64,000 bases of DNA from Herbaspirillum hiltneri N3. Lineage in GTDB: Bacteria > Pseudomonadota > Gammaproteobacteria > Burkholderiales > Burkholderiaceae_D. The stretch covers positions 1,860,001 to 1,924,000 of the forward strand of contig NZ_CP011409.1 of assembly GCF_001267925.1 (NCBI RefSeq). Reading direction: 5' to 3'. Every line of letters begins with the position of its first letter. Within the stretch, counting starts at the first letter, position 1. Below the pieces are notes generated by a model. It ran no database searches and was not told where the DNA came from. It was given only the letters and a program-made list of their open reading frames with translations. A program made the translations under genes and the position numbers. Shown in pieces: positions 16,334 through 18,639 of the stretch.

Positions 16334-16642
16334 ATGGCAGCAAGTGATGATGAATATCAAACGGACCATATTCGGAATGCGGTTATTGCCGGCATCGCCA
16401 GGAAGCGACTTGAGCGCGGTGTCAAACTGAACGTGGTGGAAGCGAAGGCGTTGATCAGGGAATTTGTGGTGGAAGGCGCCCGTGATGGGCGCAGTGTTGC
16501 GGATCTCATGGAGGCTGGGGCTCACGTGGTAAGTCGCGATCAACTTATGGACGGGATTGCTGAACTTCTCACAACGATTCGGGTTGTGGGGAGTTTTCCT
16601 AACGGACTGCATCCGGTGTTCGTCCACAACCCCATTCGATAG
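16334..16642 (+). CDS. Urease gamma subunit-like protein (pseudo-urease gamma)
   Basis: This 102-residue protein aligns along its full length with UreA: RKRLERGVKLNVVEAKALI, EGARDGRSVADLMEAG, the HVVSRDQLMDGI segment and the end SFPNGLHPVFVHNPI all match conserved gamma-subunit positions. In true urease UreA holds no catalytic residue and builds the (alpha-beta-gamma)3 assembly, so a scaffold role could persist here. ATG 16334 follows GGAGGA closely; an in-frame upstream extension lacks a ribosome binding site. It lies 128 bp after the phosphodiesterase-like gene and starts the gamma, beta, alpha order usual for urease operons. Confidence 0.88.
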   Translation: MAASDDEYQTDHIRNAVIAGIARKRLERGVKLNVVEAKALIREFVVEGARDGRSVADLMEAGAHVVSRDQLMDGIAELLTTIRVVGSFPNGLHPVFVHNPIR

Positions 16643-16695
16643 CGCGTCGTTGAGCGCATATTTCTCTCCCTTTGATATGAAATAAGGAGTACGTG

Positions 16696-16965
16696 ATGAT
16701 TCCTGGTGAAGTTATTACTCGCCTTGGCGATATCGAGTTGAACGCAGATCGACCGATAGTCACCATTCAGGTGACGAACACCGGTGATCGACCGGTCCAG
16801 GTGGGAAGTCACTGCCACTTCTTTGAAGCTAATCCCGGATTGGCTTTCGACAGGGGGCAGGCTATGGGGAGACGTTTGGATATTGCATCTGGCCTGTCAG
16901 TGCGGTTTGACCCCGGTCTGACATACGAGGTGAAGCTCGTCGCGTTTGCAAGCAACAGGGCCTAG
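16696..16965 (+). CDS. Urease beta subunit-like protein, C-terminally short (pseudo-urease beta)
   Basis: This 89-residue protein matches UreB from the first residue (MIPGEVI) through GDRPVQVGSHCHFFEANP, FDRGQAMGRRLDIASG and FDPGLTYEVKLVAFAS. It stops at SNRA, where typical bacterial UreB chains of about 101-106 residues continue with a conserved VFGFRG-type tail, so 12-17 residues are missing. The stop is clean and followed by 33 bp before the alpha-like gene. ATG 16696 is chosen over GTG 16693 because AAGGAG is better spaced. The lost tail is consistent with relaxed constraint or altered assembly in a non-ureolytic complex. Confidence 0.88.
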   Translation: MIPGEVITRLGDIELNADRPIVTIQVTNTGDRPVQVGSHCHFFEANPGLAFDRGQAMGRRLDIASGLSVRFDPGLTYEVKLVAFASNRA

Positions 16966-16998
16966 ATTTTTTGTGAGTTGTCATGAATGGAGATGATG

Positions 16999-18639
16999 AT
17001 GAGTTCGATTAGCCGCGCCAGATATGCAGGCCTGTATGGGCCGACAACGGGGGACAAGATTCGGTTGGCAGATACCGAGTTGTTGGTGGAGATCGAGCGG
17101 GATTACACGATCTATGGAGAAGAGTCGTCGTATGGGCTGGGCAAGTCGATTCGCGCCGGCATGGCACAGTCGTCATACAGTGCGGCAAACGGTGCTGCCG
17201 AGGCGGTGATCACGAACGTGGTGATTGTCGACCACTGGGGTGTCCTGAAGGCCGATATCGGGATCATCGACGGTCGCATCAGCGCGATCGGGAAATCCGG
17301 GAATCCTGATCTTCAACCGGGTGTGAATATCATCATCGGTCCAGGCACGCAGGTGATCGATGGTTCGGGAAAAATCCTGACGGCCGGCACGATCGCCATG
17401 GATGTACCGATTTCCTCGGGCGATGTGTTGATGGCGATGGCCGCCGCCGGGACCACGACCGTCATTGGCGGCGGGTCGGGGCCGGTGACAGGATCGCGGG
17501 TGACGGGCGCTACCCCGGGGGCATGGACGGCGAACCGGTTGTTGGACTCACTGGATGCATGGCCGTTGAATTTTGTTCTCGTTGGACTGGGCAGCGCTTC
17601 GCAGCCTGGTGGATTGGAAGCGCAGGTATGGGCGGGGGCAGTCGGCGCGTTGAATGTGCATGACACGCGTGGCGCGACACCTGCGGCAATCGACAACTGT
17701 TTGTCTATCGCCGACAAGTACGACGTGCCGGTGATGATCACCTCGGATACCGCCAACGAGTTCGGATTCAACGAAGACACGATCGCCGCGTTCAAAGGCC
17801 GGACGGTGATCTTGCCTGACGTGGGAGGGGTGGAAGGCGGACATATTCCTGATGTGATCAGATGCGCGGGGCTGCCGAATGTGATCCCAGCCAGCAGCGT
17901 CGCCGCTCTTCCGTACACCGTCGACCTTATCGATGGACTCTATGGCTCAGTGATGGCAGCCAACAATCTCGACCCATCGATACCGGAAGACGTCGCGCTC
18001 GCAGAGTCCATCATTCATAAAGAGACGATTGCTGCCACAGATTTGCTGCACGATATGGGGGCAATCTCGATTGTTGCCGGCAGCAGCGTGTTTCCTGAGG
18101 CGAACGCAGAAATCGTGCGACGTACGTGGCAGATGGCGCACAAGATGAAGATCCAACGGGACCCCCTTCCTGGCGATGGGAGCAACGACAACCAACGAGT
18201 GAAAAGGTATGTCGCGAAATACACGATCAATCCGGCGATCGCGTGTGGGATCGCACATGTAACGGGGTCGGTGGAGCCGGGGAAGCTCGCTGACCTGGTG
18301 CTATGGGATCCGGCCTATTTCGGGACGCAGCCGGCGCTGGTGTTGAAGGGCGGCGTCGCAACCAGTGATGGTAGCGGCGGCCTCCTCAGCACCGATCAAA
18401 GCATCGTCTTCATTTCCAAGAGCAGCCTGGAGATGAACGGCATCACCGTCAGTCTCCGTCATCGCATTGAGGCGGTCAGGGACACGCGCGGTAGCGTCGG
18501 TAAACACAGCATGATCCACAATACGTCGACGCCAGTCGTGGAGATTGATCCGGAGACATTTGAGGTGCGTGCAGACGGTGAGCTGCTGACCGCGGAGCCT
18601 GCTACCGTGTTGCCGCTGGGGCAGCGATATTTGCTGTGA
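16999..18639 (+). CDS. Urease alpha subunit-like pseudoenzyme lacking all nickel ligands
   Basis: This 546-residue protein aligns with UreC over its whole length (SSISRARYAGLYGPTTGDKI, ADTELLVEIERD, VIVDHWG, ATPAAIDNCLS, HKMKIQRD, VKRYVAKYTINPAI, GSVEPGKLADLVLW). Compared with Klebsiella UreC from memory, the ligands are replaced: His134 by Asp135, His136 by Pro137, carbamylated Lys217 by Asn219, His246 by Thr248, His272 by Asp274 and Asp360 by Ser362. Flap Cys319/His320 become Ala/Asn; His219 is kept as His221. The MGDxNAS...PVHYRPMFG region is replaced by a short Gly/Ser stretch. Urea hydrolysis is therefore not expected. Several ATG codons are possible (16987-16999); 16999 fits GGAG spacing and the family start. 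Confidence 0.9.
   Translation: MSSISRARYAGLYGPTTGDKIRLADTELLVEIERDYTIYGEESSYGLGKSIRAGMAQSSYSAANGAAEAVITNVVIVDHWGVLKADIGIIDGRISAIGKSGNPDLQPGVNIIIGPGTQVIDGSGKILTAGTIAMDVPISSGDVLMAMAAAGTTTVIGGGSGPVTGSRVTGATPGAWTANRLLDSLDAWPLNFVLVGLGSASQPGGLEAQVWAGAVGALNVHDTRGATPAAIDNCLSIADKYDVPVMITSDTANEFGFNEDTIAAFKGRTVILPDVGGVEGGHIPDVIRCAGLPNVIPASSVAALPYTVDLIDGLYGSVMAANNLDPSIPEDVALAESIIHKETIAATDLLHDMGAISIVAGSSVFPEANAEIVRRTWQMAHKMKIQRDPLPGDGSNDNQRVKRYVAKYTINPAIACGIAHVTGSVEPGKLADLVLWDPAYFGTQPALVLKGGVATSDGSGGLLSTDQSIVFISKSSLEMNGITVSLRHRIEAVRDTRGSVGKHSMIHNTSTPVVEIDPETFEVRADGELLTAEPATVLPLGQRYLL

Follow-up and report, generated by a model that had tools for sequence, protein, structure and literature searches.

Organization of the Locus

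The window analyzed here is a stretch of 64,000 nucleotides from the genome of Herbaspirillum hiltneri N3, which is assembled as a single contig of 4.97 Mb. Homologs of all three types of urease subunit (gamma, beta, and alpha) lie intact at positions 16334–18639, preceded by a gene for a GDPD/beta-trefoil phosphodiesterase and followed by a gene for a MauE-type membrane protein. Two further genes are possible associates of this cassette. The features are as follows:

14160–16205, + strand: GDPD/beta-trefoil phosphodiesterase of 681 amino acids, without a signal peptide
16011–16112, + strand: proline-rich (PPD)n tether within the phosphodiesterase (approximately residues 618–651; mostly low pLDDT)
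16113–16202, + strand: conserved C-terminal tail of the phosphodiesterase (approximately residues 652–681; aligned in the four linked proteins)
16334–16642, + strand: pseudo-urease gamma subunit (Pfam Urease_gamma, PF00547, E 9.7e-27)
16696–16965, + strand: pseudo-urease beta subunit, without the C-terminal end (Pfam Urease_beta, PF00699, E 2.4e-35)
16999–18639, + strand (reading frame opens at 16987): pseudo-urease alpha subunit, nickel ligands lost (Pfam Urease_alpha, E 2.2e-48, and alignments)
17401–17409, + strand: Asp-Val-Pro replacing the His-x-His nickel motif (sequence and alignment)
18656–19708, + strand: MauE-type membrane protein (PF07291, E 1.8e-16) whose C-terminal part reads as thioredoxin-like
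19783–20598, − strand: 2H-phosphodiesterase with an export-like N-terminus, possible associate (PF08975, E 9.7e-25)
21012–22175, + strand: porin, a flank common to H. hiltneri and H. rhizosphaerae, possible associate (PF13609, E 1.6e-40)

The coordinates and the three Pfam matches agree with an earlier, sequence-only reading of this DNA, in which the three urease homologs had been described as intact and adjacent, and the alpha homolog as retaining long UreC identity in a frame open over 546 codons. This length is obtained from the ATG at 16999, which fits the family, and the frame comprises 550 codons from its first ATG (16987); the alpha subunit is 50% identical to the canonical UreC of the same genome and 55–57% identical to the two closest-type true ureases that were aligned. 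Its alignment with Klebsiella UreC is not shifted and falls into two stretches (query residues 5–460 and 473–550) that flank a missing loop. The C-terminus of the pseudo-beta subunit is approximately 18 residues shorter than that of the canonical beta subunit in the same genome, and the same holds in H. rhizosphaerae. Because a structure model of the alpha subunit, made with an alignment of 26 of the 120 proteins listed in the search described below, was poor (mean pLDDT 47.9) and was discarded, the fold assignment rests on sequence identity (approximately 50%). The canonical ureC, whose metal ligands are intact, is located separately at 4.299 Mb and adjoins the UreD gene at 4.298 Mb, the sole UreD match in the genome. 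No ureD is linked to the pseudo-urease, and a Pfam scan of 18 window open reading frames (ORFs) found none of ureD/E/F/G, as had been claimed.

The MauE-type protein matches PF07291 with 61.1 bits (cut-off 27), and its thioredoxin-like part with a CxxC motif was read from the sequence, with no Pfam or PDB sequence match for that part. Both the CNCFG motif of the membrane part and the CxxC motif are retained in the H. rhizosphaerae protein. It was found in one of 398 genomes, and a plasmid search gave zero matches. The gene order in the window is GDPD, gamma, beta, alpha, and MauE-type gene, and that in H. rhizosphaerae (locus L033) is gamma, alpha, beta, MauE-type gene, and GDPD; thus, the same two partners accompany the three urease genes at both readable loci. 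The alpha, MauE-type, and GDPD genes each occur in the identical two of the 34 genomes of the genus.

The 2H-phosphodiesterase is present in the same two genomes and adjoins the cassette in both, and L033 has a porin of 80% identity close to its cassette. The N-terminus of the 2H-phosphodiesterase appears Tat-like by eye, and any cyclic phosphodiesters released by the GDPD enzyme could be its substrates. However, it may merely share a low-G+C island (0.55–0.57 at 14–22 kb vs. 0.60 and 0.63 for the neighboring blocks of 2 kb). Farther upstream, the − strand at 10497–11777 encodes a member of the di-haem cytochrome c peroxidase/MauG family (PF03150), divergent from a Burkholderia-type acid phosphatase. 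This MauG-like peroxidase, which lies not far from the MauE-type gene, was considered as a member of the cassette and rejected, since none was seen among the H. rhizosphaerae cassette ORFs, read by eye. The ABC-type transport genes at 2714–3499 and 37230–39011 appear uptake-like. No dedicated secretion system was seen in the L033 ORFs (by eye) or in the ten flank ORFs scanned, PADLOC gave zero matches for three proteins, and no Pfam family of encapsulin or microcompartment shells was present in the eight proteins scanned.

Loss of the Active Site in the Alpha Subunit

In Klebsiella numbering, which also fits the canonical UreC of the window genome wherever the two were compared, the nickel ligands of urease are H134, H136, K217, H246, H272, and D360. 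The six replacements that the sequence-only reading had named (Asp, Pro, Asn, Thr, Asp, and Ser) recur in the Klebsiella-numbered alignment as H134D, H136P, K217N, H246T, H272D, and D360S, and its reading of the flap, Cys and His to Ala and Asn, corresponds to C319A and H320N. The MGDPNASIPTPQPVHYRP loop is absent or substituted in the window alpha, whose alignment breaks at the point where the MGD...PVHYRP loop had been reported as gone. The alignments confirm that the window copy is a three-subunit urease look-alike whose large subunit retains none of the nickel-binding residues.

This pattern is not unique to the window. In a full-length search with the alpha subunit, the 8000 candidates sharing most words were scored and the best 120 were listed; the dead site was found in four of these best 120 protein clusters, namely the window's own, P0002 (75% identity), P0003 from H. 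rhizosphaerae (about 58–59%), and P0004 (59%). Among the remaining 116, 114 keep every site examined, and P0113 and P0114 have one odd site each. None of the six nickel ligands is retained in any of the four pseudo-alphas, the flap residues C319 and H320 are Ala and Asn in all four, and each has either lost the highly conserved loop at approximately 453–481 or carries other residues there; H219 is retained throughout.

The extent of the change was assessed against 125 canonical ureases, comprising 114 listed database proteins and 11 encoded by the window genome and related ones, with P0113 and P0114 excluded on account of their odd sites; 300 columns of this set reach a conservation of 98% or more. 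All four pseudo-alphas keep 160 of these columns. The other 140 differ in one or more of the four, and 77 of them differ in every one. These 77 are concentrated at 121–400 and 441–480, where 70 of them fall, and the corresponding share elsewhere is 4 of 60 conserved columns at 1–120, 0 of 22 at 401–440, and 0 of 18 at 521–560. According to a cryo-EM report (PMC10121161), the urease residues that respond to the nickel chaperone UreD are F334, R338, and R340 of the Helicobacter enzyme. With an offset of 2 (Helicobacter K219 = Klebsiella K217) these correspond to F332, R336, and R338, all of which are changed in the four pseudo-alphas, R336 and R338 being lost in the window alpha. Within the regions as that report defines them, the glycine-rich switch I reads GVEGGH in the pseudo-alphas, switch III is largely kept, and the UreD-docking residue V330 is V, V, V, and L across the four, which argues against a full loss of the UreD-docking surface.

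Distribution and Selection of the Pseudo-Alpha Clade

The four pseudo-alphas are 59–78% identical to one another, with 265 of 538 columns invariant, and they group in a single clade (support 100/100) that does not include the canonical Herbaspirillum ureases. Its stem is long, a meeting of long branches was flagged, and its exact sister is unsure; an origin by duplication of the Herbaspirillum canonical ureC is unsupported, as the clade stands apart from the nine canonical Herbaspirillum rows. A search of 2964 candidates with the active-site region gave five matches at E 1e-10 or better, which were three clade members (P0002 was missed) and P0188/P0189. The latter urease-like family has GGGN in place of GGGH in switch I and keeps the metal ligands, and P0188 also lacks the flap Cys/His. 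Genome G058, of the same order, contains three urease alpha genes (loci L036 and L037), of which two are divergent but, by eye, have kept their ligands. A scan of contigs with the alpha subunit, from which records near the window's own genome were possibly omitted, found one locus, that of H. rhizosphaerae. On plasmids, the pseudo-alpha matched 164 records, all below 60% identity, and the ten listed carry an annotation as urease subunits or none. The pseudo-alpha is present in two of the 34 genus genomes, vs. a urease alpha match in 32 of the 34, and both readable genomes (that of the window and G023) carry a second urease alpha gene.

The sequence-only reading had proposed selection for a non-ureolytic role, with dN/dS near 1 as the sign of decay. 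A constrained role of this kind is supported by the three further clusters, the absence of broken copies among the four pseudo-alpha proteins, and a dN/dS of approximately 0.25 for alpha between the window and H. rhizosphaerae (dN 0.36, dS 1.43). The GDPD gene gives approximately 0.27, and third codon positions are the most frequent differences in all five genes, dS being saturated for the gamma, beta, and MauE-type genes. Between the two species, identity reaches 95% for the flanking antiporter vs. 59% for alpha, gamma is 66% identical, and the GDPD (42%) and MauE-type protein (35%) have diverged faster than alpha. A horizontally acquired passenger heading to decay, to which the low G+C content and the sparse distribution might point, is a very remote prospect that these dN/dS values, the third-position differences, and the five open genes in both species already largely refute.

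The Linked Phosphodiesterase

The GDPD protein contains the catalytic HRG, E.D, and H motifs and the barrel fold, and is predicted to be a phosphodiesterase. The tail carries a helix at 661–669, modeled with low confidence, behind the disordered linker. The cluster representative P0121 has a tether 15 residues shorter than that of the window protein, and its other 666 residues are identical. Two linked GDPDs, P0122 and P0128, have longest contigs of the same lengths (6438 and 126527) as the alphas P0002 and P0004; judging from these matching sizes, the phosphodiesterase is also located on the contigs of the other two pseudo-alphas.

All four pseudo-urease-linked GDPDs lack a signal and have the tether and the tail, whereas 60 of 68 GDPD family members show a signal-like hydrophobic stretch by a simple hydropathy cut-off. 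Four GDPDs that lack a signal but do not belong to the clade (P0140, P0168, P0172, and P0187) look, in our judgment, truncated at the start. When a profile of the four linked tails was run against two whole genomes, this gene was the sole match in each. As a regular expression, the tail motif matches eight of the 68 GDPDs, and the four extra matches (P0139, P0148, P0153, and P0173) have a signal-like stretch and ends without a hydrophobic tail. The motif by itself is therefore weak, and the tail is defined by alignment. Proline-rich C-terminal ends without a hydrophobic tail occur on some secreted relatives (e.g., P0151, P0161, and P0173), and the window protein retains the cysteines that are invariant in secreted relatives. 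The protein was found in one of 399 genomes of the order and one of 398 of the phylum, its own genome each time, and a plasmid search gave zero matches.

A Possible Scaffold and its Alternatives

Judged from the sequences, we tentatively favor, at somewhat short of even confidence, the reading that 14160–19708 encodes a nickel-free urease scaffold that likely holds the predicted GDPD phosphodiesterase by its C-terminal tail. The alpha, beta, and gamma subunits would still assemble the urease trimer without nickel, and the tail would bind this trimer, perhaps at the opening of the emptied active site or at the vertex on which UreD docks in true urease, keeping the phosphodiesterase clustered or escorted in the cell; the MauE-type protein may set the redox state or disulfides of the cysteine-rich phosphodiesterase at the membrane. 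A more specific and more doubtful version is that the whole heterotrimer is a docking hub in which one of these two sites, the dead active-site opening or the now vacant UreD vertex, takes the tail peptide, the GDPD having given up secretion for the tether.

The scaffold is suggested because four clusters share the dead site, with changes concentrated at 121–400 and 441–480; because the UreD-responsive residues are changed in all four; because the five genes are kept together in two species despite their different order, and P0122 and P0128 pair with the alphas P0002 and P0004; and because the linked GDPDs uniformly lack a signal and bear a tail that, by its profile, marks only this enzyme in two genomes, with relatives mostly signal-like and a P0121 tether that varies in length while the rest is identical. 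The co-occurrence in two of 34 genomes is weak evidence by itself because the genomes are related, as seen in the antiporter, and it is weakened by shared ancestry because four members were found and both readable loci belong to one genus; the reshuffled yet retained gene set and the P0122/P0128 pairing are stronger evidence of linkage. Our confidence in the scaffold stays below one half mainly because of the kept cysteines, which suggest export or an oxidizing compartment and are hard to reconcile with a scaffold confined to the cytoplasm. A membrane or a transporter could be what the tail binds, and the proline-rich ends of secreted relatives and the faster divergence of the GDPD and MauE-type protein also count against the scaffold.

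Of the alternatives, the one that survives best, though it is rather unlikely, is that the tail anchors the phosphodiesterase in a membrane or serves as its uncleaved export signal and that the pseudo-urease is a separate binding or signaling protein, comparable to urease activities that are independent of ureolysis. The retained cysteines would fit, as would the hydrophobic, partly amphipathic tail, whose moment is 0.77–0.78 in one subclade but only 0.40–0.51 in the other, and non-enzymatic activities of ureases are described in two publications (PMC8268090; PMC7696265). However, no dedicated secretion system was seen in the ORFs covered, and it leaves unexplained why the signal-less GDPDs are those that accompany the pseudo-urease.

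It is also unlikely that the barrel was rebuilt for a new chemistry, as a metal-free or otherwise metallated amidohydrolase-type enzyme with its neighbors in the same pathway. Several pocket positions are identical in all four proteins (H219, P136, D272, A319, and N320), and the neighboring 2H-phosphodiesterase, acid phosphatase, and porin fit a pathway of phosphodiester use. Against this reading, positions 134 (D/N), 217 (N/V), 246 (T/A), 336 (I/L/M), 338 (H/L/T), and 360 (S/T) differ among the four proteins, so that, against nearly half of all columns being invariant, the pocket is not unusually conserved, and no known metal motif was seen replacing the old one. The MauE-type and GDPD partners would point to binding or scaffolding over new chemistry.

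Mixing of the pseudo-subunits with the canonical urease, which they would regulate, is improbable. A second urease alpha gene does exist in both readable genomes, with ligands intact in the window genome, but the pseudo-urease has its own beta and gamma subunits, its beta lacks the C-terminal end, its alpha lacks the UreD switch residues, and its distribution is far narrower than that of urease alpha in the genus.

If docking by the tail is true, the scaffold would represent a new type of cargo carrier, one derived from an enzyme and not from a shell protein. The five genes form a small, rare, and testable module in which a partner enzyme with a tail but no signal peptide accompanies the loss of catalysis, and the clade is a natural control for roles of the urease trimer beyond catalysis. 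Urease is a founding metalloenzyme, and genome annotations assign its alpha subunit by name; in databases, the clade member of H. rhizosphaerae is called "urease subunit alpha" despite having none of the known nickel ligands.

Comparison with Known Systems

No report of a nickel-less urease homolog set was found in the available parts of the open-licence literature searched, and searches for papers about GDPD/ricin toxins, MauE, or cargo peptides yielded none with a direct bearing on the cluster. The cluster is filed here as a urease-derived pseudoenzyme with dedicated partners, unreported in those available parts. Its closest likeness is to the UreABC of Klebsiella aerogenes/K. pneumoniae, with which it shares three homologous clustered subunits, an alpha subunit approximately 50% identical over its length, the N-terminal domain, and many barrel residues. 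By contrast with UreABC, the pseudo-urease has no nickel ligands, carbamylation lysine, flap Cys/His, or linked UreD, its loop 453–481 and beta C-terminus are missing or changed, and its UreD switch residues are changed. The P0188/P0189 type and the extra alphas of G058 are also divergent UreC homologs, but they keep the metal ligands (by eye in G058).

The partners depart from their relatives as well. Unlike GDPD/beta-trefoil (ricin-like) fusions, the linked GDPD has no signal peptide and carries a proline-rich tether and a hydrophobic tail. The MauE-type protein resembles the MauE of methylamine utilization in its PF07291 domain and CxC motif; unlike MauE, it has a thioredoxin-like CxxC part, as read from the sequence, and is linked to a pseudo-urease instead of methylamine dehydrogenase. 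Encapsulin cargo-loading peptides and microcompartment encapsulation peptides follow a scheme of an enzyme, a flexible linker, and a short terminal docking peptide. The GDPD may follow a comparable scheme, with a disordered linker and a short terminal helix, modeled at low confidence, that would dock; no shell family is encoded among the eight proteins scanned, and the host, unlike in those systems, would be a urease trimer.
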